Shown here: positions 37,525 to 64,000 of the stretch, piece by piece
How the letters are laid out: each line of letters begins with the position of its first letter
Position numbering within the stretch: position 1 is the stretch's first letter
Origin: Tubulanus polymorphus
Lineage: Eukaryota > Nemertea > Palaeonemertea > Tubulaniformes > Tubulanidae
Direction of reading: 5' to 3'
DNA length: 64,000 bases
Assembly: GCF_964204645.1 (NCBI RefSeq)
Contig: NC_134025.1
Span: 31,030,001-31,094,000, forward strand
Translations under genes and position numbers: made by a program
The notes under the pieces: model-generated
Told to the model about the DNA's origin: nothing
The model's database searches: none
Seen by the model: the letters and a program-made list of their open reading frames with translations, nothing else

Positions 37525-40500
37525 ATGTTTTCATTAAGAATAGTCACCACAGATCACTATCTCTCGCCTCCTATCCCCGGTTTAGATGTTTGTCATTCAG
37601 ATTTCCGTGGAACTGACGTGAAACGTGTCCCTGTTTTTAGAATATATGGATCGACACCTGCTGGTAAGTGATTGCAAACATAACACGTATTTTAGAGACC
37701 ATTTTTTCAATATTTATTCACAAACTAGTCGTCCACACTTCACATGTGTTCAGTGCTTCGCCTGAGACATTTCTAATTAAAAATGAATTACAAACACCAG
37801 ATATTAGACATTTTATCAGCACACTTTCAAAAACTGATCGTCCACACTTCACATTACAGTAGTGAATAAGTAAAGGGGTGCAGGTTCCAGGCAGTGGAAT
37901 GTTGCCTGTCCAAATTCTAACAGCACTACTTATTACTTGCGATAAATCATTGAACCTAGCAATAGATTTTGGTAAATGATATTTTTTCAGCGTGTTTTAA
38001 AACTGTAGATTTAGCAGCAGATGTTTCTGTGACTGGTATTTAAATAGTATTATATTCATATAACACTGGATAAATAAAAATGAATTCCACTAATCATTAC
38101 ACAGTATTACTGTGCTGCATACAAATATTTTTTGAGGTAAAATAATTGATAATTTTTCATTCTCTGAACCCATTTTTCATAGTTTATCATAGTAAAGTTT
38201 GACTCTGCGTTGATTGAAGATAAGTTTGTTTAAAATGTATTAATCCTTGAGTCTAACCCAGTGAAACCGTGGAACTGAATCCTGGTGATCTAAATTTCAG
38301 ACCTATCACCAATGATTTACACAGTACATACAAATCCTTCATATCTGTCTATATACTCCATGCCAGTTATTAACATATTCACGAATTCACGAATAAATTT
38401 GAATATCATTACTGTTTATGACCCTTTCTACTTTAAAGTCTGATTCTCATTTCAATTAGATTTAACTTATCTATTATTTACTGAACCAGGGCGGTCGCAC
38501 AAGCCCCCTGCCTCCCCTAAGGCGGGTAGGTTTCTCAAAAGCCCCTTTCTCCCCCTGACTAAACCGGGTCGGTCTCTCACAAGTCTCCTGCCTCCCCCTG
38601 ACTAAAGCGGGTCGGTCTCTCACAAGTCTCCTGCCTCCCCCTGACTAAAGCGGGTCGGTCTCTCACAAGTCTCCAGCCTCCCCCTGACTAAAGCGGGTCG
38701 GTCTCTCACAAGTCTTCTGCCTCCCCCTGACTAAACCGGGTCGGTCTCTCACAAGTCTCCTGCCTCCCCCTGACTAAACCGGGTCGGTCTCTCACAAGTC
38801 TCCTGCCTCCCCCTGACTAAACCGGGTCGGTCTCTCACAAGTCTCCTGCCTCCCCCTGACTAAACCGGGTCGGTCTCTCACAAGTCTCCTGCCTCCCCCT
38901 GACTAAACTGGGTCGGTCTCTCACAAGCCCTCAGTCTGAAAAACAGGTTCATCAGATAAATGATGAATTACCTGATGATTAAGCTACTGTACACTAGTAG
39001 TGAAAGCTCATACTTTTAATAAACCTTCAAAGTAAAATCTGTCTTTACATAATTCAACTCTATGGTCCATTTATCAGCGGGTTTATCTGGGATAATTTTC
39101 TTACTTTTTGGGATATCGTTACCATACCTACCCCACCCTGATCATGTTGTCGTAACCCCACAAGAAAAATAACTTCGTAGGCATGGTGACAATTTTCAAA
39201 TTGAAGATATTTCACAAAAGGTTTTTCTCTTCAATTCAACTTGATTAAACGAGACTCTTTTGTAATCATTGTTATCGATACAGAACTGGTTTATTATCGG
39301 ATATTCAGTTGTTGTCCATGATTTTTAACATTCTGTTAAATACCTAAATGAGGTATCTGTATATAATATATCCCCAAAAAGCATGCGAAGTATCCCAGAA
39401 AAACAACAGGTCTCATTAATTCATAAATGAATTCTTTAAGTTCTAAACATAGTCTTTCGCCCCTAAACTCAAGTTCGACGATCGATTAGCACGTCAGAAT
39501 CGCTACGGACCTCCACCAGAGTTTCCTCTGGCTTCGTCCTGCTCAAGCATAGTTCACCATCTTTCGGGTCCCACCGTGTACGCTCTGGCTCCGCCCGAGG
39601 CGGTCCGGATGAGGTTCACCGTGCCGTCCCACCCAAATATTCTTAACGTAACTCTTCTAATATTGTTGTAATTGTTATTGTTGTTACAGGACAGAAAACA
39701 TGTATGCACGTTCACGGGGTTTTCCCGTATCTATACGTGCCGTACGACGGTCCATCATCGACTCATCGATATCTCAAACAATTCGCTATCAGTCTCGATA
39801 AAGCTATAAACGTTGCCCTCGGTAACGCTTCATCTGTTTCACAACATGTCTTCAAAATATCGCTCGTCTCTGGAATGTAAGTTTCACTTATCATTCAGTT
39901 ATCATTCAGTTATCATTCAGTTATCAATTAGTTATGTGTCTAACTATGGTATTTTTATATTTGGATGTTTTATTTGTTTCAGACCGTTTTATGGTTATCA
40001 CAATAAAGATAAACAGTTTATGAAGATTTATTTGTACAATCCTTCAATGGTTAAAAGGTAATATATCTATCTATCGATGAGTGAGGTATCTCACTGAGCC
40101 TGTAGTTGTCTCATTAACAATTACGTCACGGACATGTTCTAAATTGAACTCTAAATTAATCAGTTCCGTTTGCCTGATCTGATTGCTGTTAAAACGTTGA
40201 GGGTCTCGTGTTGAAAGGTGTCCTGCTCTCCTGTCCTCTGTCATATTGGCCCTGGTCTGGTGACTGGGTCTAGCTTCCCTGGTCTAGTCTGGCTTTATCA
40301 ATGAATTGACTATCGATCTAACCATGTATCCAATATCAATATTCATCCGATGAGAATTTAATGTTCATTTGTCAAATTCATCGTGTTTATATTTTTAGAG
40401 TTGCAGATTTATTGTTAGGAGGTGCGGTTATGAATAAAGTATTTCAGCCTCATGAAGCTCATATGCCCTACTCATTACAGGTAAGTTCAGTTTCATCTCT

Positions 40501-46500: not shown

Positions 46501-48980
46501 GAGATTGGTTTTGAATGTTTGAAGTTAAAACAGCTGAAATTGTTGATCTCCCGGCATCTGGTTACATAGACTGATTACTCAAAAACAGTAACTAGGGACC
46601 TGGGCCCGGTTTCACGAAAAAGTTTAAGCCTAAAACGGTTAAGTTTGAATTGTTGTCATCATAGAAAACATGAAGTAACCAATAGCGACTACACCAGAAA
46701 TTTGAGTTTAACTTTTTCGTGAAACTGGATCCAGGTTTTATAGACTGGGAATCAGTAAATCCTCAATCTGGGTGACAACCACTGTAGTAAATGTGAGAAA
46801 CCATGCTAGGCCTAATATGTGATAAATTTCAAAATGTTCCCAGGGATTATTTTGCTTCCACATTTATGAAACCCAGTCGTATAAAATATATTTGAATTAT
46901 AGTTGAGCAGGAAGACAGCGTATTAGCTGAATTATTGGCGTGTTTGGAGAAAGATCTGCCGTCACCGGGATCAGTGGCCTCGCAAGTGAAAATACTAGAG
47001 GAACAAGACAGTATCCTCGGGAGTAACCCTCAACATGACGACGACGATGAGGAACAAATGACGCTGGAGATGTCTCAGAAAGTTTGGAGCGGCGATCCGA
47101 AACAAATTGATCAGGAAAATACCGATGACACTGAAAAAGAAAAGTAAGATTTACGATTCCCGCATTACCCAGAAATTGGGTAAAGCTTGGCAATTTTAAA
47201 GTGTTATATTTGGGAATTCGATAGAATCCAGGGAAATATTTGGGAAATTCATTTAACGCTTCATGTAGTTTAGTTCTGGAAAGGGTAACTTTCTTCAGCA
47301 ATTTTTCTTAATAATCACTTTTATCAATCAGTCACCTCTAAAATGTTGACTTGCCTGTCGTGTTAGAAGGTATCTGTTCATTTCCATTTGAGAATTGAAA
47401 AATCACCCATGAAAAACTTTGAATTTGAATTCATAAAACTGTTGGAACAATGAATGACAGATACAGATAGTAAAACTAATGATGTATTTCGTGTTGAATT
47501 CACTGTTTAAACGACTGATGTGTTGTAATTGTAGGAATGATATTGAGAAGGATGACTTTGATTTAGCTGGCATGGATAAATCATGGAATAGTTCTCAATG
47601 GGAAGAGGTGAATAGTAAACAAGTGCCTCAGTTAGACGGAGCTGGAGATGAGAAAATACGTAAGTTTCACAGTTTTTGGTTTCATCCTGGGTCCAGTTCC
47701 AAAGTTGTATGAGTTTAATTTAACTCTGGATCCAGTTCCACAGTTGTATGAGTTTAATTTGACTCTGGATCCAGTTCCACAGTTGTATGAGTTTAATTTA
47801 ACTCTGGATCCAGTTCCACAGTTGTATCAGTTTAATTTGACTCTGGGCCCAGTTCCACAGTTGTATGAGTTTAATTTGACTCTGGATCCAGTTCCACAGT
47901 TGTATGAGTTTAATTTGACTCTGGATCCAGTTCCACAGTTGGGTTTAATTCTTTGCGACCCAGTTCCACAGGTGGAACCGGTTGCTGTTGTATTGATCAG
48001 TAAAACTCAGTTGTTTTTACTAATATTCAGGTTATTCACTCAGACAAAAAGAATCCGAGTCCAACAACAGGAGAATAGGATCAGTGGCGTCCCCTAGTGT
48101 CAGTAATTCTTATCAGACAACGCCGAACCCTCAATCTCCGTGGATGAACTCAGTGAACCCTACGATGACTAACAACATGCAAATAGTAATCAATAGTATG
48201 AACGAAAAAGACAATCAGAATAGTGGCGCAGTCGTTACCGAGCAACCGGATATCCTGAGTCAAGCGATAGCCAGTAGCGGATTCCCGTTATCGGGAGAAT
48301 TCTCACCGACCAATCAGGAAGAAGAGACCTTGACATTCATTCCGGAGACGCAACAGAATATAAACATTGTTCCGTTAAATTCGAACAATGAGGTCATCGA
48401 TTTAATGAATATCAATATGAATAACGTGCATAACAATAACATGCATGGATACATAGCTGCTTCATCGGAGAATACAGCGTGGATACAACAATCAGACGGT
48501 TACCAGGTACAAATACCGACGTCGTCGCCGAGGAACCATCGTTTACGCAGAATCGCTCCGTATCCGCAACAACACGGTAATATCGACATGGCAACCACTA
48601 TGCAGATGAATAACGGGCAGTTATTGACGGAGTTTATTCATCAACCTCCGGCGTTTACTCAGGTCGTACCGTCACAGAATCCAAACCATCATCACATCGG
48701 CTGTCCTCAAATGAGTTCGTTTAATCCTCAAATCAATCCTCATTTTCACTCTTCACCTCATCAACTACAAAACATGTACAACGCAAGCGGTTTCGGACCG
48801 ATCGGTTTAAACCAGAATAATCCGGCTTATTACCAACCTCAGCATCATCATCTATCACCGATGGAGATGTTGCATCACAGCGTCGAGGGTCTCGCCGGAG
48901 AGAATCACCCGGGGTTACTGAGTCCGATGAGTATGGCTTACGAGTGTCTGCAACAACAGCAACAACAAGATCGACAACGA

Positions 48981-49016
<36 letters not shown>

Positions 49017-52000
49017 CAACAGAAAAAACAACGTAACACTCACGAGAAAAAGTCATCGAAACGTCGTCAATCGCCGGTGAATAAAACATCTACAAAAAAT
49101 AATCAGAAATCAGCGAATTCTGGAAGCCCAAACTCTAAACAGAATACTGTGTCACCTTTAACAAAAACGGTTCAGAGTCCGAGTGAATCTACTTCATCGT
49201 GTAGTACCGTCAGTCAAACAATACCGACCAGTAAAAATACGGAAGATTCAAATACGCGGAAAATTCAAAAAGATGATCTTTCACCGCACGCGAAATTGAC
49301 CAATCAGAATCAGAGTAACGACGATGAGAACTGTAGCGGTAAAACGGTCGGCAATTACGACAGTTTGTTTCCACGGACACCGGAACCACAGCAGACACAG
49401 ATAGAGAAACAGACGGATTCAAATAACGAGGTTCAATCGAGAACTAAACAAAACGAAATGAGTTCGGTCGATCCTGAAACTACTAAACTATCGGACGAAG
49501 CAATTCGTGGACAACTCGATTTATGGAGGTCGGAACTCGTACAAAGTTTGAAGGAAAGTAAGAAACATTCGGCAGCGGAAAATCAGTCGGAAACTCATCA
49601 GACGTTAGCCTCGATCAGTATTCAAATAGATAACGCTGCAAGTGAATTCCCTCAAAAACAAACAACTCAAACTACGGAGAAAAAGATTGAAGACAAGAGA
49701 AAGATGGATTCTTTACCGAAATCTTGCCGGCAAACGGAACGTAATCCATCGCCGAAACGACAATTTGACGATCCAACTCCGAATTTAGATCCGGAATCAT
49801 TGATTGAACCCGTTACGCCGAATTCCGAGTTTCTAGCGAGTCCCGCGGCTCCGGATATTCCTGAAGAGCACGATCTAGAGAAAGAAAAACAACTTCAAAA
49901 AAAGTCTTCAGAATTCGAAGATTTATTAAAAACTGTCAATAAGCAATCGTCGCATGATTTATCGAAACCGAAGAGAGGAGAGATGTTTATGTCTGATGTT
50001 CGAAATGAACCGCAAATCAGAGACAAACAAATGAAAGAAATTCAGATATCGCATTTGAAAAACTACGATTCAGATGATAGAGGACTGAGGAACACAAGTA
50101 GTTATGGCAATGTGAGGAGTCCTCATGGGAGTTTCCAAAATCAGAACAGCCCTGTGATGCAGAGAAAGATACCTGAGCCATCTATGAGTACAAATAGTTA
50201 TGGCGGCAATGTTAGGAGTCCTCATGGGAGTTTCCAAAATCAGAACAGCCCTGTGATGCAGAGAAAGATACCTGAGCCATCTATGAGTACAAATAGTTAT
50301 GGCGGCAATGTTAGGAGTCCTCATGGGAGTTTCCAAAATCAGAACAGCCCTGTGATGCAGAGAAAGATACCTGAGCTATCTATGAGTACAAATAGTTATG
50401 GCGGCAATGTTAGGAGTCCTCATGGGAGTTTCCAAAATCAGAACAGCCCGGTGATGCAGAGAAAGTTAACTGAGCCATCTATGAATACAAATAGTTATGT
50501 TAATGTGAGTAGTCCTCATACGACCTTCCAAAATCAAAACAGTCCAGTGATGCAGAGAAAGTTAACTGAGCCACCAATGAATACAAGCAGTTATGGCAAT
50601 GTTAGGAGTCCTCATGGGAGTTTCCAAAATCAGAACAGCCCTGTGATGCAAAGAAAGTTAACTGAGCCACCAATGAATTCAAATAATTATAGCAACATCG
50701 CGAGTCCTCATGGGACCTTCCAGAATCAGAACAGCCCGGTGATGCAAAGAAAGTTAACTGAGCCACCAATGAATTCAAATAATTATAGCAACATCGCGAG
50801 TCCTCATGGGACCTTCCAGAATCAGAACAGCCCGGTGATGCAGAGAAAGTTGACTGAACCATTAACGGTTGATGTCGGTAGTCCTATGCAGCAGCACAAT
50901 ATGAGTCGACATGTGAGTCCAATACATCATCAATCTCCAATGTCTACGATGAGTCCGAGTCATCGTAGTAATACGCCACGCGGCGGAGAACGACATCAAT
51001 CTCCGGTTCCATTTCATCATCACTATAAACCCTACTCAAATACAATTCCACAACGGAGTCCGGCCATGTCTAACCGTAATTACAGCAGTCCTTCGCATCA
51101 TTACGCATCTCCGTATCATAGTCCAGCTAAAACAGACAGCGGTCCCACTACTCCGGGCTCTCAATCAGTCAGCTGCATCACTCAAACAGCTCCAAGTAGT
51201 CCGGTATTTAATCGTCCGATATTAAACAGACCTAGTCCTCTTCCTCCGATGTCTCCTCATAGTCCATACCCGGAGCAATGGAAACATTGTACCACTCCAG
51301 CTCACGCTCCTCCGAGATTCGAGTCTCATTCTAGTCGTAATCCGTATTCTAGTCATCGTCAATCTGATCAGAGAGATGTTACCAGCAGCACCAGCAGCGG
51401 CTCTAGCGTTCCTCAGGATTTCAGTATTCGTACCTGTTCACCGTGGTCGGATAGAAACAGACACAATCTACCGCCTCCGAATCAGGGTTTCTATCGCGAG
51501 GGGTCGATGCATTCCTCGTCAGCAGGGTCGGGGGCTGGTAGACCTCATGGGAGATCCTCCTATCATACGGAATCAGTAGGATCTCCGCTGAATCTATCGG
51601 GAGATACATCAGCTCCCGCTTCATATACTTCAAATTATCATTCACCTCAACGTAAAGTAGCACCAGCAGCAGCAGCAGCAGCAGCAGTAGCATCAGTGGC
51701 ATCAGTGGCCAGCCCTGCAAGAGATAAACAGCAATATCATCAAACTAATGATGACTCGGAGTGGACGTATATGTGCAATAAGTCAGGAAGAACATTTACT
51801 TCAATGAACTCTTCTCAACAACAGAACCGTGCTCCTAATACTCACACATCATTTGAGAACTTCCTACCTCCTTCTGCTGCACAGTTACCAGCCGCTCAAC
51901 CTCCCCCTGCTCTCGATACCGGACAAACTCATCAAACTTATCAACCGGGTGAACATCATCTATTCACCGGAGAGACGGGTAACGCTCGACCGGCACAGAG

Positions 52001-55000
52001 CAGTAACCGAGGACGACGTGGAAGACCGCGCGGGCGTCCTAGAGGTAGCAAAACACGCGGGACTCGAAAAACAGACGCAACTTCACGAGTGACGATTCAG
52101 AGCAAGAAACAAAGTCTTCAAAAATCGTTCAACGCTTTGATCGAAGATTTAGAAGAGGAAGCTCAAAAACATAGAGAGATGATGAGCAATAATCAGACGA
52201 ATAGATACCGACCAGTAGTAGATAAACCTGCCCCATCACCGGCTTCATCGGACGAGTTCCCGGCATTCACAGTCCGCAGTCCCGGCCAGAATTATACTCA
52301 ACATTGGACAGAAAAACATCATCATAAAGATCCGAAAAGACCTCACGTTAAAATGAATCAACAACAACAGTTTCTTAATGTAACCACTGAGAAGAATTAC
52401 CCCGGTCAGAGTGGACGCCACGAAGCTCCGAGACTTGAACGTCCTCGCACAGTGAATATCCTTGATGATGAAATTCCTGATATAGACGAACCGCAAGATC
52501 TAACTGAAGTTCATCAACAACAGCAGCAGCAACTGAGAGTAAATACAACTCCAGCTCATGAACCAGTTTACGAGCCTCCATTATCCAGTACAAGAGCTAT
52601 AGATCTATCTGCAGGTGCCACTAATACGACAACAACACCTACATTCGATAAACTCAGACCTCCACCTCCTGAACCTGTTTTACTGAAAGATTTACTGAAG
52701 AGAAAACAGTTGTCTCATATCGCTGAACCAAAACCAGTTCCACCTTCTCCATCGCCTTTACTACTGTTAAATAATCCTCCTCACTTTACCAGCCCGGTGA
52801 AAACATCTTCGAAAAAATCAACATCGAAGCCTCCGCTTAGTCGTAAATCATCAAAAAGTAAAATGGAATCACCAATCCCGCGGATAGAACCGGTAAATCA
52901 AGGAAACATCGGAATCATGGATAAAAACAGTTCGATTCTCGATCGCTACAAACAATTACATATTCCTATAGCAACAACAGCAGACGTGATGGATACCGAG
53001 CCGGAAATCGAAATACCTGGAACTCCGGAAACACCGGGAACACCGGGAACACCAGAAATACCGTCACCTTCCTGTAAACTCAAACTCAGTAAAAAGAAAT
53101 CAAAAGACGGTTCGAATGACGAAGATAGTTGGCAGGTAGATATGATAATGAGTCCCGAGGAAGAACGTGCTGCTTTGGAAAAGTTATACAGTCACGGTCG
53201 ACAGCAAGGTTACTCACCGTTCAAAAATCAAAATAAAACCAGTCCCAGTAAATTCATCTACAAGAAAGATCGACTGAATTCGAAATTGTTCGGGATTTAT
53301 AAAAAAGTTTTCCGCGATTCGGACACCATTTCTTTCCATTGTAAAAATACAGTTAACTATCACCAGAGTCGAGCTGTTAAAAGTGCCGAGCGTAAAACAA
53401 GGGGTATGGATAAAGTGCGGCATCGCGTAAAAATCCTGCGTCAAGATAAAATTAGATATGATTTCACGAAAATCGGCAACGAGCAAGTTGTGTTGAATAA
53501 ACTATCGCCGTGGGAGATACGCGGGATACAGGATGATTTACGATTGGGTGAAACAGTCGAGGACGTCGTACGAAGAGCGGAACGCTTCCGTCGTCATAGA
53601 AACCCTAAACCAACGCGGCGTAGACGGATTTTACCTTCATTCGACGACGAGGACGAAATAATGGAGGTTTCTATCGGTAACAACGATGGTCATTGTTATT
53701 CGTTCGAGGATACAGTTCGAATGCAGCCGTTAAATTATTTCAACGAACCGCAGAAAGTGACGAGTAATTCGAGATTTGAGAAGTTGGAAAGACGATTATC
53801 GGGAGCGAGTCATTCTCAAACGGACGATGAATGGTACGTGGTGACACCTGATGAGAATATTTCGTACTATGCAGACGCTGATTACGTTCCGAATGACTCG
53901 GATGATAGTGACAGCGATTTCGAGATTTCTAAACCCGCGTGCCCGTCGTTGTCATCGGCGAGCGTCAGTCCGGGAAAAAGAGCGGTAAGAGGAATAGCAA
54001 GGAGGAGAATAGAGAAATCATCGATCGAAAGTGATCTGTTCTCGTGTGGAGCCAGCGAACGTACGTCGCCTCTCGTATCGACGTGGTCCAGTAAAAACGA
54101 TCTGACTTCGACTCTAGATAAACCATCGACTCCAAAATTCGATATGTTTAAAGTAATCGATGACAGTAAAGCAGTCGTTATAGTACAACGAGTCGAGCAA
54201 CAATTCCCGAATATATTCCAAGGTCGCGCGGTCCACGAGGTCATCGCCAGCAAGAAAACGATATTGTGTAAAGATATCAACGGTGAAATTGTTCTCGAAG
54301 TCGTCGACAAACACGAGTCGGAAAAACCCGAAGTTAAATACGATAAGAGTTACCCGGTGTTATATCGAAACTTCTTCGATCTGATGGACAACGAGAGAGC
54401 TCACGCGGACGAGCTCATCGCGAGGAAATCATCATCGTCAAAAATTAGAAGTCCGGTGAGTTCTAAAAAGACGACTCCTAAGAAAGGTCTGATACAATAC
54501 AAGAGTAATGATACCGACGATGATGATTTGCAGTTTAGTGACGAGGAGGAGAATAGCGCCTCGAATAAGAGCAGCAGCACGACGCAAGAAGTAGAAGAAC
54601 TCGATCCTGTGACGGGAATTTTAGTAAAACGTCGTAAAGACGGACGAGTTGTTAAACCGAAGAAAAAGAATACATCGCTTCATAAACGATTATCGTTAGC
54701 GTTCTGTAAACCTGTTAAACGGCGTAGAAATAGTTCCAGTCCGAGTCCGAAAGTTCAGAAAATCAACAACGGTTTGTCGGCTTTGCACGAAGCTACGTTA
54801 CGTAATATAATAGCGAAACCGGACAGCTGCGCAGCTGACTGCGATGACTTCATCGTCAGGTACGACGACGTTATGTACAAATTTGCGTTGTTCTCTCCTC
54901 CGGCGTCGGAGCGCGGAGAACTGTCTCCTCCGATGCCGTTATCTCCGGAACAAATACACGAACAACAAGAAGAACAGGAGAAACCGATCGAAAAGTGTCT

Positions 55001-58000
55001 GAAACGTTCGAACAGCGGTTTGAGTACGAGAAGTTTACTGAATTCAACTTCATCGTTGGAGGACTGCGAGATTATAGAAAACGATCGAAATGATTTGATC
55101 TCATTCGCGTCCGGTTTGAACAATAAAACTGGTTCTAAGAGCGGAGGAGCATCGAGTAAACGTTTAGACAATAACGATTACGAGACAGCGGATTACACGA
55201 ATACTGATTACCAAACGCATCAGATCAGTTTTACCGATCAGTTCGAAATGAGAAATAAACTAACTAACGAAGAGGAAGAAGATGATGAAATATTCGTATC
55301 GATGAAATCAGAGGAAACTAAAAAAGTCGAAGATGAAAAGAGGAAAGATGCTGCTACCTCCTCGGATGGTGCGTACAGCGGGTCACATCTATCCGTTCCC
55401 GTATCTTACCAACCTCATCAACTCTCTCCATCAATTCATCACAACGATGATTCATCGCTTTCATTAGACATGTCTAAATCTCCGAAAACAATCATCTACG
55501 CTGAGGACGTTCTAAAAAATCCACATCATTGGAGATCGCCGCAGGGTTCCAGTCCCGAACCCTTATTCATGTTTGATTCTAACGCGACTGATGACGTGAT
55601 ATGGGTCGGAGAGGAACACGGTTCAGTTAAAAGTGGAGCTACATCTCCTCATGGTAGCTGCAATAGCGAAGGGAAGCTGTCTAACTACAGCCGAGCATCC
55701 GGTGTCAGCATATCTAACAATCAACACAGTCCTGTTTATACAGATACAGCTGATGATAACAACGCAAATACACAGTCAATCAATGAAAAACCAGTTATAT
55801 TTCAACCATATAAATTAACTGGTACCGACTCAGTTGAAGAACCCAATCTACCGGCATCTAGTAATTCTGCTCCCAAATTCGAATCCAAACCCGATGCTTC
55901 GTCAAACTTACCCGAAAAAATGGACACTACAGAAATCGGAAAATTGAGCAAAGATGATGATAATTACCAGAATGTCGGTGAGAATGAAGACGGAATTTGT
56001 AGTTTGCAGATTATTGATGTTAGATCTGAAGCTTCTGATCAATCTTACGCTTTGAAGAAGGCGCGATCACCGGCGAGCAGTCAGGGGGCGAGTGAGGATG
56101 AAGATAATACTACGATAAAACAACAAACGAAAACTGATGATCGTCTACAAAGTAGACAACGGTGTAGAAAAGAGAAGAAAGTTTTACTGGCGAGAGAATA
56201 TTCATCGGCGCCGTGTTCACCGAGTTCGCAGTTGAGTATCGACGATAAAGTATCGGTTTATTCCGATTGTATGGGACAAGGACCGAAGCATCGGTGGAAA
56301 CAATGGAATAAATTTCATAAAGAACCGAGCGATGAACCGGCTGATAACGATAGAACCGTCAGACACAGCGACCTCTCCGCTTACTCCCGTAAGTATCATC
56401 TGAACCATCGCATTGAAATATAGAAAATCACACACAGATGAAATATATTATTTTGTAATAGTTTCAGGATTTTGGCTAATTGCCATAATTCTGTGAATAT
56501 GGAATTTAGGCAAAAGCTAGAAAATAAGAATATTTGTCATCGATTGTGGGATTTTTTTTTATTGGAAATCATCAGTTAATCGTCAGACTATTTGATTTTA
56601 TTGATGTAGCGAAAACAATTCATATGTTTGTTTTTCAGACTTGACTCCAACGGATGCAAGTCGGCACAAAAATCTCCTGAAAGTAGACAAGTCAAAGGAA
56701 TGCAGCTCTAAAGAAGTGCTACCGACCTCTAGTGGTTTATCTGTCAGTTTACAACCGTGGTTAAAAGATCAATCTCTATTTATGAACTATCGATGGTCAC
56801 CGTCGCCACCTAATTCATCAAACAGTTCAAACAGAGAAATGAATGATGTTCAATCATCATCTAGTTCTCCACATCGACCTTGGGAGGAACGCAACACTAA
56901 ATCACCAGGTTCTGAGTCAAATGTGACTAGTATATCCGGAAGATCGACCGCTACTAAAATGAAATCTGAATGGAGCTTTCAAGCTCAACTTGAGGAACTG
57001 CGCTTACAGATGGAAAAATCTGCTCGATCGCCAGTCAGAAACACTGACCAGACGCCAATCAGAAACACTGTCCAGACGCCAGTCAGAAACACTGACCAGA
57101 CGCCAGTCAGAAACACTGACCAAACACCAGTCAGAAACACTGACCAAACGCCAGTCAGAAACACTGACAAGACGCCAGTCAGAAACACTGACCAGACTCC
57201 AGTCAGAAACACTGACCAGACGCCAGTCAGAAACACTGACCAGACGCCAGTCAGAAACACTGTCCAGACGCCAGTCAGAAATGCTGACCAGACACCAGTC
57301 AGAAACACTGACCAAACGCCAATCAGAAATGCTGACCAGACACCAGTCAGAAACACTGACAAGATGGTGGTCAGAAACACTGACCAAACGCCAGTAAGAA
57401 ACACTGACCAGACTCCAGTCAGAAACACTGACCAGATGCCTGTCAGAAATGTTGACCAAACACCAGTCAGAAATATTGACCAAATCTCTGTCAGAAACAC
57501 TGACCAAAAGCCTGTTGAAAACAATGATCTAACACAAGTTAGAAACGCTGACCAAACTAAACCTCAGTCTTATTATGAATTAGACATTCAACGACAGTCG
57601 CCTACTTTCATAACATCCATCATCAATGAAACTCATCGAACTGATGTAGTTTCCACTTCAAATAAAGGTACCACACCTATACCTGGTGTAAGTAAGGCAG
57701 AAGATACTAGAACTGAAGCAACTCCAATGACCTCTCTGCGAACTGATACTGATTTCAGTGGGAAAAATGAATGTGACGAAAGCATAAGTACTAATGAAGA
57801 TTTAGATGATAGTAAAGATTTTATCCACCATTCACCGGTCAATGATAATGATATAACATCATCTCCTGTACCTGTGACTGAGCAGCAAAACGAGCAAAGT
57901 ATTGAAGACAATAGTAAGGATGATAGTAAACACTATGAACAAATTAGTTCAGTTGAAGATGAAGACAAAATGAGTGAAAAATCTGAACGGAGTGAATCAA

Positions 58001-61000
58001 AGAATAATTCACCAGTATATAAATCAATATGGTCCCCAGTCGATGATTTGAGTCATGATTTTGCTGATCCTAGCGACATCTTTATTCAAACGAGAAAATC
58101 AACTGTACCAAAAGTCATTCAGCATGATGTCGCTAGCAATGAAATTAACAAAGATGTGGTTTCAACAAAAGCGGTGGAAATAAATTCAATTCCTGGCTGT
58201 TCTGAAGCAGAAGATGTTAGTTTATCTAAAACTGATCGAGCAGAAAATAACCTATTAGTTCAGAATGAGCCTAGTTCAACCCATCATACTAAATCTCCTA
58301 GTCCTATCAGGTCACCATCAGCTAGTTCAACTCCACCCCCTCGTACTAAATCTAGTCCTATCAGGTCACCATCAGCTATTTCAACTCCACCCCCTCGTAC
58401 TAAATCTCCTAGTCCTATCAGGTCACCATCAGCTAGTTCAACTCCACCCCCTCGTACTAAATCTCCTAGTCCTATCAGGTCACCATCAGCTAGTTCAACT
58501 CCACCCTCTCGTACTAAATCTCCTAGTCCTATCAGGTCACCATCAGCTAGTTCAACTCCACCCCCTCGTACTAAATCTCCTAGTCCTATCTGGTCACCAG
58601 CTGCTTTCCTCGATGAACCAGTAACTGCTGAAAACAAAACCAAACCTGTCGATGAGAATGTTATTCATACGAGTACACCTGATTTACAACAGACCGGTAA
58701 GATATGGTCACCGGGTCGAGAGGAGTCTCAGAATTCTGAGAAAAACTCTGAGATCACTTCTGATGAAAATGACGTCGATAAACCTGAAAAACCTGCTACA
58801 AACAGTACACAATTCTCAGAAGAACCCAATCTGTCGACTGTGATTCAAAAATTCCACCCTCTTCATCCGAGGAGATCAATCTGGTCTGACGATGATAAAC
58901 TAATGGATGATTTCGATTATTCGGATTGTCAATCCGAGTACAACAGCTCGCCGAGATCATACTTCTCACCTCAAACTGTAAATAGTCCGTGTTATACAGG
59001 GCTGCATTCATCACCTCATAAAACTGACACAGCTTCAACATCGACTGCACAACCAGAAAACAAAGATTCTGCTGAGAAAATAGAGAAACATCGCGTCTCT
59101 CTGCAACCGAGTTTTACCAGCCCTATAAGTCCAGTTTTGTCGCCAGTTATAAATAAAAATCAAGACGATGTTTCTAACAACAAACAGACTGAATCAGATG
59201 CAACTAAAGACCACCTCAAATCGGATGTTCTGAACACTGCGGTACCGTTAAACAAAAGATTTCAAGTTAATTTACCACAAGTTTTCGAGTCGCCAACACC
59301 TCAAATATTTATGAACAAAAAACCACTTGCAACTTGTGACATTGGAAGACGTTTAGTTGTATTACCGATGGTTTATGATTCTCCAACTCCACAACCACTT
59401 TTGCTAAACGATAAAACAGCTGAAAGTGATGAATCACCTCGAGTTAAAACTGTTTCACTTGATACAGAAAAATCTGGAAACAAAATGAATAGTGATGCCC
59501 AAAAATTAGCAAATATATGGTCACCGTTCAAAATGGAAGAGGAGAGTGAAGAGAAAATAGATACTGAAGAAATAGAAATGTCATCTTCTGAGAGAATAGA
59601 TTTCGATACTCAGTCTATGTCAAGTGAAGATCATGAAAGTAGTGAATTCAGGCTACATTTAACACCGAGTCCGGAAATGAGTCCGTCGTACGAGTCTTCT
59701 GAGAAACCATCGGAAAGTTCAGATCAGTTAATATCACCAGAATCAATAGAACTTCGATCAAATCCATCGTATTCTACTAAACCTAAAATATTGCCATCCG
59801 TTAGATTGACTGAAGTGGAACATTCATCAACAATTTCTGGACATTCACCTGGTGCTTCACCAGTATCAGTTACAGCTTCTCCAGTATCAGTTACAGCTTC
59901 TCCAGTATCAACAAGAACTTCACCAGTATCGGCTAGTCCTTCAATCATCTCTGATACTGACACACGTAGTCCTATATGGTCACCGTATAGAGATTGTGAA
60001 TCTCCTAAAATCGAAGAAGAATTGTCTAGAAGTCCAGTATCTGAACCTGAAAAACTATCACCGCAATCAATTGTTCAACCTTCACCTAAACAGATCTGGT
60101 CTCCTCACAGAAACGAGGAAGATTCAGATGACAAGAGTGACAAGATATCTGAATGTCCTTGTCCTAGGGAATCAACTATGTCACAGATTGAACCTATGCA
60201 ACATTGTTCTCCAGATTCTGTAGTGAATAGACCACAAATCTGGTCTCCTCACAGAAATGAGGATGTTGATGGAAGTGAAAAGAAATCAGAAGATCCTATC
60301 GAGTTAACTATGCAGCTTAGTTCACAGATTAAATCTCTTGGTATGCAACCTGTTTCTCAGATTGAACCTATGCAACCTGATTCTCCTGAATATGTAGTGA
60401 ATAGACCTTCTAAAATCACGTCTCCTCAGAGAAATGAAGATGATGATGTAAATGTAGATGGACAAAAGTTGGTATTTTCATGCCCAATTGAATCAGCTAT
60501 GCAACCTAGTTCTGAATACATAGTAAATCCAACTCCTGGAATCAGGTCTCCACACAGAAAAGAGGAAGATGATGATCCTGTGGATAATAATGAAAAGAAA
60601 GGCCAATGTTCAAGTCCAATTGAATCAACTATGCAGTCTAATTCGAATATCAAACCTATACAGCCTTATACTCTTGAGCCTTTAGTGATGAGACCTCCTA
60701 AAATTTGGTCTCCGCTCAGGAATGAACAGGATGATGATATTGATGATGTGAATGGAAAAATATCTGTATGTCGAAGTCCAGTTGAATCTGAACCTGAAGT
60801 GAATAGACCTGACATCTGGTCTCCTCACAGAAATGATCAGGATACTGAAGACAAAAATGAAAAGGTATCTGAATTTTCAATTCCAACTACGCAGCTTACA
60901 TCACAAATTGAGCCTACACAACCTGAATCTATCCGGATTAAACCAAAGATCTGGTCTCCTCATAGAAATGAAGATGATGCTGATGATGATAAAAATGACA

Positions 61001-64000
61001 ATGAATTATCTCCAGTGTCGATATATGTTAGTGCTGTTGAAACAGTTGAACAGTCGGTGATAGAACCGGAACAAACCGAGAAATCAGAATCTAGTAATCA
61101 GAGAGACTTACAGCAGTCTAAATCACCTGAACGACCTACTATCTGGTCTCCTCATAGAGATCACAGTAGTTCACTTGTCCAATCACCGAGCCAACAAAGT
61201 CCTGCTCAAATCTGGTCCCCCTACAGAGATAGCCCCAGTCCGGTTTATCTAACATGTAAAAGTCCAGTAGATTCTGATCGGTTGTCACCACAACGAAGTC
61301 CGCATTCCTCAACAGTGGACAAATCTCCAACTCGGTCAATATCGAGGAGTCCAATCTGGTCTCCACATATAGATTTGAAATCTCCAAATTCGGTACAAAG
61401 TCATTCCCGATCTCCAAGTCCAAATCCTAGATCTCCAAGTCCAAATCCTAGATCTCCTAGTCCAGATCCTAGATCTCCTTGTCCAAATCCTAGATCTCCA
61501 AGTCCAAATCCTAGATCTCCTAGTCCAAATCCTAGATCTCCTTGTCCAAATCCTAGATCTTGTCCGAATATTAGATCTCCTAGTTCAAATCCTCCTTGTG
61601 CTATTTATACATCTCCCAGTCCAATTCCTCTATCTGTTAGTCCAATTCTTGCCTCTCCTGGTCAAATTCCGGATGAAAAACCTGGGATACTTTCTGAGGA
61701 TGATCTGATCAGACAAAGAAAAAGTCCGATCTGGTCGCCGCATCGTGATTTAGACAATGTATGTGAAATCGCAGAGCAAAGTTCACCAGAACCGGAAAGA
61801 CTGAATGAAACTGGAGCCGACCTTATTGAACAAAATCCAGTAGAGCAGACTGAGAATGGACAGACAGAGGTGAGCCAGACAGACGCAAGGCAGACGGAGG
61901 TGAGCCAGATGGAGTTGAGGCAGACGATGGAAGATGAAGATATGGATTTGATTCCTTGCGCGCAACTTCCTCATCCATCATCACAGAAATGTCTTAATGA
62001 ATCTCTACAGCAAACTGAAGTTAATAAACCTACTTCGAGTAACAGTTCAGATGAAGCTATGAAAATTAATGATTCAATAAAATCGAATCAAAGTCCACCT
62101 GCAAAGTTTCAAATATGGTCACCACATTCTGAGTATGACAGTCCATCACCGCTGCTACAGTGTGGACAGCCAGACAGATCGCAAACACCACTCCGGATAC
62201 CAGCAACGCCTCCAGACATACATCATCAAGATACTTCAGATAATAGTGATGATGGCTCATCATCTCCTCAATATCAACAGAATCCTCCGGAATACAGCCC
62301 TTATAAAGCACCGAAACCTAAAATCATTTCAACAGCTGGCGCACAATACTCAGTTTGGCCTCTGAGTGCATACGTGAGACAAGAGAATAGGACAACAGAA
62401 TGTGAATACAGTAGTGAAAACTCACCAGCTTCTGAAAAACCAGAATCTGAAGAGGAGCTACTACAAAACCACGAAGTTACGTCTAATTCTGATGAAGATT
62501 TGATACCTTGCGCTCAGCCACAATCAGAAAGAAAAGTCTCACATGTGACCCCAAAACCGAAGATTTGGTCGCCGCATCGAGATGAGCTTTCTGAGAGTGA
62601 GGATGGTGAGGAACTAAATTCATCTGAAGTTAAAGAAAGCGAAGAAGTGAATGAATCAGTTTCAGAATTATCATTAAATCTTACTGTTACATCATCATCT
62701 GATGCAAGTGAAAGTTCTAAAAACCACCAATCAATAACATCAGAATATGATGATATTATTCCATGTGGTCAATCAGTATTAGCTGAACCACTGGATACTC
62801 ATCAACATCAAGATGATAATGAACATTTTAATGACGAGCCAGCAATTTCACCTGCATCAAGTGAAGACACTGAACTGTCTCAAGAGGGTTTAGAGCCAGA
62901 ATCTCATATAGTTGTAGAGCAAGAATCTCATAAAGACACAGAATCTCCTGAAGATACAGGACCACAGTCTCCCAAAAATACAGGACCACGGTCTCCTAGA
63001 AAAACAGGCAGACAGTCTCCTAAAAATACAGGACCATATTCTCCTAAAAATACAGGACCACATTTTCCTAGAAATACAGGACCACAGTCTCCTAAAAATA
63101 CAGGACCACAGTCTCCTAATGTTGTCAAACCCGAGTCAGATGAATCTGCTTCAGAGGAACCACCATTTCCAAATGAAGAAGTACCACAATCTTTAAAATC
63201 CCCAAACAATAAGGAATTAAATACTGGAAGAGATGAAGAAAGTGAAACACCTAGAGATAGAAGTTTGATCTGTCAGTCAAAAGACACTTCTTCCTCTGAT
63301 GATTCCCGTGATTCTACTCCGCAGAGAGAACTAGCACGAGCCGTTGCTTTATCATTACAACAACCTGTCAAACCTTACGAAGGAGCTTTTGATTCTAGCC
63401 CTTTGTGGTTTCCAGCGTGGGATCGATTAAAATCACCACCAGAATCGGGTAACAATTCTCCAGTTCAGTCTCTGAATGATCCGATCAGTCCAGTCCTGTC
63501 ACCTGCAAGTTTAAACCAGGAACGAAGAAATTCAAATGACGCCCAAAAATCCGAACTAGAAATTCCGGTCCCCGCGGCGGAAAATTCAGAAAGAAAAATC
63601 TGGTCTCCGATTCAAGAAATGATATCATCTCCAAAACCGACGGCTATCTGGTCTCCGGGATCAGACCATGACTCGAGTAAACCCTCGTCTCCTAGTGATC
63701 ATCAAACCATCTCGCCACAAACAACTACTTCACCTGTTTCATTCTCAATCAGTTCCCTGTTAGAAACAACTCACAATACAATACCAATCAAAGAGGACAA
63801 TGAATTAGAAACTTCAGTAAGTCTGAGAGCAGATGAGTCGAACATAATGAACCCTGAAATATTGCCGAATCAACTCGCCGGTGGTGAGGAAAATACTACA
63901 ACAGAAGATACAAATAAAACCACTGATAATTCAAATAAAGAAAGTGCTGATTCTGAGGAGACTAGTGAGATACCTGCTGCTGTATCGAGCGGTGTCAGTG
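37525..64000 (+). CDS. REV3L: REV3L, DNA polymerase zeta catalytic subunit, N-terminal and middle part (3' end outside window)
   Basis: Coding exons: 37525-37663, 39690-39876, 39983-40057, 40399-40480, 41766-41850, 42385-42571, 43915-44009, 44517-44624, 45166-45250, 45713-45834, 46254-46412, 46903-47143, 47535-47659, 48031-56388, 56639 to beyond 64000; all GT-AG and phase-consistent. Exons 1-5 encode the diagnostic REV3 N-terminal family-B domain: MFSLRIVTTDHYLSPP, HVHGVFPYLYVPYDGP, KAINVALGN, HVFKISLVSGIPFYGYH, KIYLYNPSMVKR, FQPHEAHMPYSLQLFIDYNL. Exons 6-13 are acidic and Ser/Pro rich, with VPQLDGAGDEK in exon 13. Polymerase zeta extends past DNA lesions together with REV7 and POLD2/3. At least 5,803 residues are encoded here, against about 3,130 in the whole human protein, and no family-B polymerase motifs have been reached. 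The ATG lies 7 nt after a TTTCAG acceptor, so an upstream 5' UTR exon is likely. Confidence 0.93.
38490..38935. repeat. Minisatellite in REV3L intron 1, 43 bp unit, about 10 copies
   Basis: Unit TCTCCTGCCTCCCCCTGACT then AAACCGGGTCGGTCTCTCAC plus AAG, highly homogeneous. Confidence 0.95.
39450..39634 (-). rRNA. 28S rRNA fragment (partial, probably non-functional)
   Basis: Read on the minus strand the segment contains conserved large-subunit rRNA core: GGTGGGACCCGAAAGATGGT, GAACTATGCTTGAGCAGGAC, GAAGCCAGAGGAAACTCTGG, TGGAGGTCCGTAGCGATTCT, GACGTGC and GGGGCGAAAGACTA. These belong to the region around expansion segment D3. About 185 bp are present, flanked by AT-rich intron on both sides. An isolated piece inside REV3L intron 1, opposite to the gene, cannot yield a ribosome component. 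It is likely an rDNA pseudogene fragment inserted 56 bp before exon 2. Confidence 0.88.
40518..40805. mobile_element. Two adjacent diverged copies of a MITE-like element, REV3L intron 4
   Basis: Both copies share AAATATGAAGTTGCCA or AAACATGAAGTAGCCA, followed by AATTA-ACC and an A-rich tract. They end in forms of TTTTTGTGAAACTGGGCC. Same family as 46599-46735. Confidence 0.6.
41507..41592. repeat. 29-bp tandem repeat in REV3L intron 4, 3 copies
   Basis: CAGTCTACTGTAGATCAGAG plus GCAAGCCCA, three copies starting at 41507, 41536 and 41565. Confidence 0.9.
42610..43705. repeat. 60-bp minisatellite with internal hairpin in REV3L intron 6, about 18 copies
   Basis: Unit CATCCAACTCAGATATCACT, CTCAAGTCAAAAGATCAGAC, TTGAGCGGAGTCTACTGTAC. 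Nearly constant 60-bp period. CTCAAGTC and GACTTGAG within each unit form an 8-bp stem with a 9-nt loop, so a transcript would carry a row of hairpins. Confidence 0.95.
44685..44950. mobile_element. piggyBac-like MITE in REV3L intron 8
   Basis: The left end after TTAA (44681-44684) starts CCCTTCAATACCC. The right end GCACTGAAAGGG is followed by TTAA (44951-44954). TTAA duplications with CCCTTT-type termini are the mark of piggyBac-family elements. Subterminal CGTCTACACCGC repeats are inverted inside. No transposase. Confidence 0.7.
46599..46735. mobile_element. 137-bp MITE with 28-bp imperfect inverted ends, REV3L intron 11
   Basis: The left end CCTGGGCCCGGTTTCACGAA is mirrored by the right end TTCGTGAAACTGGATCCAGG, with AAAGTTTAA continuing the pairing. 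The interior has GAAAACATGAAGTAACCAAT. Related copies lie at 12007-12117, 40518-40805 and about 44315-44390. Confidence 0.8.
47680..47965. repeat. Minisatellite in REV3L intron 13, 39 bp unit, about 7 copies
   Basis: Unit TATGAGTTTAATTTGACTCT then GGATCCAGTTCCACAGTTG. Begins right after the exon 13 donor and ends about 65 bp before giant exon 14. Reverse-complement relative of 31190-31505. Confidence 0.93.
48031..56388 (+). CDS. REV3L: REV3L giant exon 14 (8,358 bp)
   Basis: One uninterrupted exon encoding about 2,786 residues, entered in phase 1 after AATATTCAG and left at CCC|GTAAGT. Order, in protein numbering: Asn/Ser/Gln-rich start; polyQ at about 866-890; eight 33-34 residue repeats at about 1252-1507; Ser/Pro/His-rich stretch; polyAla at about 1774-1782; double AT-hook GRRGRPRGRPRG near 1888; then a more ordered, basic block at about 2260-2420 (DSWQVDMIMSPEEERAALEK; SPWEIRGIQDDLRLGETVED; RRAERFRRHRNPKPTRRRR). 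That block sits where vertebrate REV3L carries the region shared with NEXMIF/KIAA2022 (DUF4683). I suspect but cannot show homology. The rest is acidic, Ser-rich and probably disordered. Human REV3L also has one very large exon here, about 4 kb, so the architecture is conserved but doubled in size. Confidence 0.9.
48946..49020 (+). repeat. REV3L: CAG/CAA repeat encoding polyGln in REV3L
   Basis: In-frame interrupted polyQ (about residues 866-890), with a pure CAG run of roughly ten codons near 48980-49008 and CAA interruptions. Likely length-polymorphic. Confidence 0.9.
50095..50870 (+). repeat. REV3L: Coding repeat in REV3L exon 14, 33-34 residues, 8 copies
   Basis: Each copy reads roughly NVRSPHGSFQNQNSPVMQRK followed by IPEPSMSTNSYGG or LTEPPMNSNNYSN. 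Copies 1-4 are nearly identical and copies 5-8 form a second subtype, so expansion occurred in at least two rounds. Frame is preserved through 99-102 bp units. Confidence 0.95.
52003..52068 (+). other. REV3L: Double AT-hook motif in REV3L
   Basis: NRGRRGRPRGRPRGSKTRG carries two overlapping copies of the AT-hook core R-G-R-P inside a basic stretch, the pattern that binds the minor groove of AT-rich DNA in HMGA-type proteins. Confidence 0.75.
56639..64000 (+). CDS. REV3L: REV3L giant exon 15 (at least 7,362 bp, open at window edge)
   Basis: The frame opens after TTTTTCAG at 56638 and, as I read it, stays open to position 64000, encoding at least 2,454 residues (from about 3350 on). It joins exon 14 in phase (C|AC gives His, then LTPTDASRHKNLL). 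Composition is Ser, Pro, Glu, Asp, Thr and Asn rich, consistent with a disordered chain. It carries about 18 exact I-W-S-P motifs plus degenerate ones, an 8-residue tandem repeat (57037-57555), a 19-residue repeat (58285-58600), a 7-residue repeat (61408-61570) and another 8-residue repeat (62938-63118). Two blocks share SPTPQ (near 59293 and 59383), and IPCAQ or IPCGQ occurs three times (61951, 62506, 62760). I know of no equivalent second giant exon in vertebrate REV3L. Confidence 0.85.
57037..57555 (+). repeat. REV3L: Coding repeat in REV3L exon 15, 8 residues (24 bp), about 21 copies
   Basis: Consensus T-P-V-R-N-T-D-Q, with variants TPIRNTVQ, MVVRNTDQ and KPVENNDL toward the ends. The frame is kept throughout. 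Open frames on the opposite strand are shadows. Confidence 0.95.
58285..58600 (+). repeat. REV3L: Coding repeat in REV3L exon 15, 19 residues (57 bp), about 5.5 copies
   Basis: Consensus PSPIRSPSASSTPPPRTKS. One copy lacks two residues. The last copy changes PIRSP to PIWSP, joining this repeat to the IWSP motif family. Confidence 0.95.
61408..61570 (+). repeat. REV3L: Coding repeat in REV3L exon 15, 7 residues (21 bp), about 7 copies
   Basis: Consensus R-S-P-S-P-N-P with Ser/Cys alternation at one position. Confidence 0.9.
62938..63118 (+). repeat. REV3L: Coding repeat in REV3L exon 15, 8 residues (24 bp), about 7-8 copies
   Basis: Consensus S-P-K-N-T-G-P-Q. The frame is kept. Confidence 0.9.

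Follow-up and report, generated by a model that had tools for sequence, protein, structure and literature searches.

DNA polymerase zeta is a main source of damage-induced mutation. The large insert of its catalytic subunit, REV3, differs widely in size among species, and large parts of it are without an assigned function. In another polymerase, RNA polymerase II, the C-terminal domain (CTD) with its repeat YSPTSPS is phosphorylated by CDKs. The large insert of mammalian REV3L lies within a single exon of 1386 residues, much of which is predicted to be disordered (PMC6895278). REV7 is bound through the consensus phi-phi-x-P-x-x-x-x-P-S-R (PMC4333420), of which the first proline outweighs the second for binding (PMC11747621, PMC10046837). 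Multivalent Trp motifs tuned by phosphorylation have been described for the binding of Puf3 to Ccr4-Not (PMC12819147).

The locus presented here differs from mammalian REV3L in having two giant exons in place of one (PMC6895278), and in the second of them a short Trp-containing peptide, I-W-S-P, is found many times. The literature on IWSP, and on repeats or phosphorylation in REV3, was searched and no description of such a motif was found.

Host gene and exon layout

The window, i.e. the whole stretch of 64,000 nucleotides that was analysed, corresponds to C1:31030001-31094000 of a 268-Mb genome. Searches for COX1 and for molluscan haemocyanin, intended to place the animal, gave no match. Two very long open frames were identified on its forward strand, named exon A and exon B (Table 1). 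The donor of exon A at 56388 (CCC/GTAAGT) and the acceptor of exon B at 56639 (TTTTTCAG/A) have matching phases, so that both exons were read as consecutive parts of one gene. Exon B, with a length of 7.6 kb, runs to about 64239, 240 bp past the window end, with a donor near 64240; the open frame around it (56605-64335) is stop-free over 2577 aa. Jointly, the two exons (48024-56388 and 56639-64239) encode about 5,300 aa of REV3, which greatly exceeds the 1386 residues of the mammalian exon (PMC6895278).

From its predicted features, the gene hosting the repeats is REV3. The frame at 39647 reads GQKTCMHVHGVFPYLYVPYDG, which we take to resemble the N-terminal domain of human REV3L. Exons for a B-family polymerase domain (DNA_pol_B) were located on the same strand at C1:31099953-31102441, 6-8 kb beyond the window end and thus downstream of the insert. 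A Cys-rich C-terminal frame is present in L010 and presumably corresponds to the Cys clusters of the human REV3 C terminus; REV7 motifs, presented below, are also found. Near the 3' end of REV3, L010:1-1480 consists of a long minisatellite in which all three forward frames are open for ~460 codons (TQGLCYYTSLPRVCVTIPHYPGS).

A Pfam scan of the giant exons A and B returned no domain. Exon B is poor in hydrophobic residues (19% WFYILVM, FoldIndex -0.15), so that each Ile-Trp pair forms an isolated hydrophobic island. Tandem arrays are also found in both exons. In exon A, a 96-bp unit is present in 8 in-frame copies at window positions 50090-50862 (SPHGSFQNQNSPVMQRK...), and in exon B, about 20 in-frame copies of a 24-bp unit encoding TPVRNTDQ occupy positions 57029-57506.

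Table 1. Positions of the giant exons and of the IWSP-type copies in the window
Feature	Position	Strand	Remarks
REV3 giant exon A	48024..56388	+	open frame; zero IWSP
REV3 giant exon B	56639..64000 (in window)	+	open frame, splice signals; disordered Ser/Pro/acidic insert, located between the N-terminal domain and the polymerase domain
Dispersed copy IWSPVDD	58027..58047	+	
Dispersed copy IWSPAAF	58588..58608	+	sixth unit of the 57-bp array; units 1-5 are IRSPSAS
Dispersed copy IWSPGRE	58702..58722	+	
Divergent copy IWSDDDK	58879..58899	+	Pro lost
Dispersed copy IWSPFKM	59515..59535	+	
Dispersed copy IWSPYRD	59974..59994	+	
Central cluster	60092..60990	+	7 degenerate tandem units, related linkers; spacing 111-177 bp
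Central unit IWSPHRN	60094..60114	+	
Central unit IWSPHRN	60238..60258	+	
Central unit ITSPQRN	60415..60435	+	ITSPQRNE; Trp lost
Central unit IRSPHRK	60541..60561	+	IRSPHRKE; Trp lost
Central unit IWSPLRN	60703..60723	+	
Central unit IWSPHRN	60814..60834	+	
Central unit IWSPHRN	60949..60969	+	
Dispersed copy IWSPHRD	61141..61161	+	
Dispersed copy IWSPYRD	61210..61230	+	sole copy with Pro five residues past the motif Pro
Dispersed copy IWSPHID	61354..61374	+	
Dispersed copy IWSPHRD	61729..61749	+	
Dispersed copy IWSPHSE	62113..62133	+	
Dispersed copy IWSPHRD	62563..62583	+	
Dispersed copy IWSPIQE	63598..63618	+	
Dispersed copy IWSPGSD	63646..63666	+	

Number and specificity of the IWSP copies

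Exon B contains 18 exact in-frame copies of IWSP, from 58027 to 63657, plus one IWSD, while no copy was found in exon A. About 0.02 copies were expected from the composition. Shuffling the protein sequence of exon B gave no IWSP in 1950 of 2000 trials and two at most, and after masking of the tandem arrays and of the central cluster, 12 copies were counted against 0.018 expected. IWSP and its sub-patterns represent by far the strongest enrichment in exon B, and unrelated gapped four-residue patterns came nowhere near. Extended forms are less frequent (IWSPx[R/K] 12, IWSPHR 7, IWSPHRNE 3, IWSPHRD 3). The first-pass annotation had reported about 18 copies of IWSPHR(N/D)E, a number which holds for the IWSP core but not for the longer form. 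Its spacing of about 70-600 bp was too narrow, as successive IWSP copies are separated by 48 to 1035 bp. The retention of Trp that it had emphasised is seen in all 18 IWSP copies; nevertheless, two of the seven central units and five of those in the 57-bp array have lost Trp.

A search of the 268-Mb genome for IWSPxR[D/N], covering TCN-encoded serines only, gave 10 matches in REV3 and a further 14 outside it. The latter lie in frames of 13-79 aa with no coding signs, some of them representing a repeated short sequence. Outside REV3, the search thus revealed no protein carrying the full TCN-serine motif in a plausible coding frame. At the protein level, no paralogue of the motif region was found; the matches, on C9 and C10, were confined to low-complexity SP sequence.

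Constraint on the peptide in dispersed and clustered copies

The dispersed set was defined as the 14 copies outside 60.09-60.99 kb (13 IWSP and one IWSD), registered on Trp. I, W and S are invariant and P is present in 13 of 14, giving amino acid identities of 0.86-1.0 across the four positions. Identity is at background level (about 0.08) from -2 outward and fades past +5 to +8, and the linkers are as dissimilar as random codons. At +5, a position which played no part in picking the copies, D or E was found in 11 of 14 (P about 2e-7); Ser at +8 (8 of 14) is a weaker signal. The first and second codon positions of Ile, Ser and Pro are fixed and the third positions vary freely: third-position identity, compared with that of random codons for the same residue, was 0.42 against 0.33 for Ile, 0.24 against 0.37 for Ser and 0.35 against 0.36 for Pro. 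Synonymous sites and linkers are thus randomised around a fixed I-W-S-P, which indicates that the peptide is constrained and that recent slippage or DNA copying alone is insufficient. The pN/pS value of 0.07 obtained for the dispersed copies is partly a product of their choice, and so biased low, since the IWS core served to select them. A nucleotide-level element was ruled out because the third codon positions are free.

The serine codons of the dispersed IWSP copies are all of the TCN type (13 of 13), against 44 of 68 for the other SP serines (P = 0.008), a bias more readily explained by common ancestry of the copies than by their repeated independent origin.

The central cluster at 60.09-60.99 kb has a different history. 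Its linkers are related (67-84% in linker family D5), indicating an origin by local duplication. Here the seven units were taken by position, the Trp-less ones included, so that the test is unbiased by the motif. The pN/pS was 0.22 for the motif (0.15 without the Trp column) and 0.81 for the linkers, with pS of 0.43 and 0.55, respectively; as the alignment was anchored on the motif, the linker values are perhaps somewhat inflated. Mean residue identity was 0.80 for the motif columns and 0.35 for the remainder, and only 2 of 20000 random sets of eight columns matched the motif. All seven units retain I, S, P and R.

Differing linkers had been read in the first-pass annotation as a sign of selection rather than slippage, and linkers as alike as the motifs were named there as the mark of plain duplication. 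This argument stands for the dispersed copies, of which the linkers are unrelated. In the central cluster it applies in part, since the units arose by local duplication and their linkers are related, yet less alike than the motifs, and the pN/pS contrast speaks for selection there as well.

An alternative explanation is repeat expansion with little function, where an exon tolerant of minisatellites would have copied a chance IWSP unit, the copies persisting by their youth or by gene conversion. Exon B indeed readily expands repeats: besides the related linkers of the central cluster, it harbours plain arrays of 24, 57, 21 and 24 bp. In the 57-bp array (58280-58599), five units encode PIRSPSAS and the sixth PIWSPAAF, the Trp codon differing by one base, so that with the two Trp-less central units Trp is lost in seven units altogether. 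This explanation is nevertheless considered unlikely, as synonymous sites and linkers of the dispersed copies are randomised but I-W-S-P is not, and the pN/pS contrast is observed inside the young cluster itself. Selection on the peptide within the REV3 gene appears moderately well supported, on evidence that comes from one genome and, for the central cluster, from only seven related units.

Candidate function and comparison with known systems

A basic residue at the third position after the serine (+3, SPx[R/K]) was found in 7 of 13 dispersed IWSP copies against 7 of 68 other SP sites outside the arrays (P = 0.001), and SP-directed phosphorylation of the motif serines would fit this pattern. 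The pattern corresponds to the CDK site [S/T]-P-x-[K/R]: 12 of the 18 IWSP copies agree with it in full and they are clustered in a disordered region. The invariant Ile-Trp before the serine, however, lies outside the CDK consensus, the acceptor is always Ser and never Thr, and six of 18 copies have no basic residue, so that a CDK site would not be universal among them. Docking of Cks1 was rejected. Its motif is [FILPVWY]-x-T-P, while the acceptor is Ser in 18 of 18 copies and every I-W in exon B is followed by Ser.

Multisite proline-directed phosphorylation could also suffice alone, with S-P-x-R/K being selected for bulk control of the charge of the insert and Ile-Trp hitch-hiking. The central cluster, where Trp is kept in only five of seven units and I, S, P and R in all of them, could be explained in this way, and so could the SPx[R/K] enrichment and the acidic residues after the motif. 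However, the majority of SP sites elsewhere in the exon have neither Trp nor a basic residue, showing that bulk phosphorylation would need no Trp, and I-W is present in 18 of 18 IWSP copies when the basic residue is present in only 12. Phosphorylation without any role for Ile-Trp is therefore judged distinctly unlikely.

A relation to REV7 binding was also considered. A probable REV7 site is located near the end of exon B at 64069 (RIYTPKRAPPSR), which fits the consensus provided that Tyr is accepted as the second residue. In the following exon, at about 64954, DIVITPCRVPPK resembles the second human site VIMPCKCAPSR (PMC10046837). A search of the PDB with the REV7-motif region returned no related chain. 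Another dispersed motif is present in three copies in exon B (DLIPCAQ, DLIPCAQ and DIIPCGQ at window positions of about 61945-61965, 62494-62514 and 62749-62769, respectively); this motif bears a faint likeness to the second of the REV7 sites in REV3, which reads DIVITPC here.

The IWSP repeats share I-[W/Y]-[S/T]-P-x-R with the probable REV7 site of exon B, the RIYTPKR of the organism's own REV7-type copy resembling IWSPHR. Like the REV7-binding motif of REV3L (RIR/RBM), they are short peptides in the same disordered insert with a start of the type hydrophobic pair-x-Pro. IWSPxR could accordingly be a half-site for auxiliary docking of REV7 (MAD2L2), providing many weak contacts near the full site, and the weight of the first proline in binding (PMC11747621, PMC10046837) is in favour of it. 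But only one of the 18 copies has the second proline five residues past the first, and none has PSR, so that the repeats are not classifiable as REV7 motifs and the likeness is a lead only. Moreover, I-W-S-P fits the hydrophobic pair only with Trp, which is not aliphatic, taken as hydrophobic, and there are 18 copies here against two REV7 motifs. With 31 hydrophobic-hydrophobic-x-P sites in exon B, a chance likeness is easily obtained. The HORMA search yielded no REV7 gene, which does not show its absence; the only HORMA-domain gene detected, at C11:9753685-9756391 on the reverse strand, presumably resembles the meiotic HORMAD and not REV7. Docking of REV7 through such half-sites is thus regarded as quite improbable.

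The explanation that we favour, at slightly less than even confidence, is that I-W-S-P-x-[R/K]-[D/E] is a selected short linear motif whose copies in the disordered insert of REV3 form a docking array that is multivalent and tunable by a kinase. The motif would have spread by duplication inside one exon, first in an older round, whose linkers are no longer recognisably related, and later in a local one at 60.09-60.99 kb, and purifying selection would then have preserved the peptide. Each Ile-Trp may anchor a partner protein by weak hydrophobic contact, and the Ser-Pro-x-Arg/Lys beside it may be a target of a proline-directed (CDK-type) kinase that makes the hold tighter or looser; binding would then be graded by the number of sites. 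The loss of Trp in two of seven central units and in five neighbouring array units counts against its role as an anchor. Phosphorylation, binding of a partner and the sense in which it would be regulated are what we infer from the sequence. A further-reaching proposal, which we consider rather doubtful, is that this undescribed multivalent motif, IWSPx[R/K][D/E], brings in a particular binding partner, perhaps additional REV7 through half-sites, under the control of a proline-directed kinase, making the recruitment of polymerase zeta graded and dependent on the cell cycle. If true, the repeated selected motif would give a concrete handle on the recruitment or timing of polymerase zeta, and it offers a peptide that can be synthesised and tested directly.

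Among known systems with repeated aromatic motifs, the Argonaute hook, as in the Trp repeats of GW182 or of the Pol V C-terminal domain, shares with exon B the many single Trp residues scattered along a disordered chain. It was rejected, as no GW or WG dipeptide occurs in exon B and the flanks of Trp are instead fixed as Ile and Ser-Pro over a long I-W-S-P context; such a function is extremely improbable. The CTD of RNA polymerase II is likewise an aromatic-Ser-Pro repeat on a polymerase; IWSP differs from it by irregular spacing in place of tandem heptads, and homology is not claimed. Puf3 with Ccr4-Not belongs to another protein class and has another sequence, but like the REV3 insert it presents a short aromatic motif in a disordered region, and in Puf3 the phosphosites grade binding (PMC12819147).
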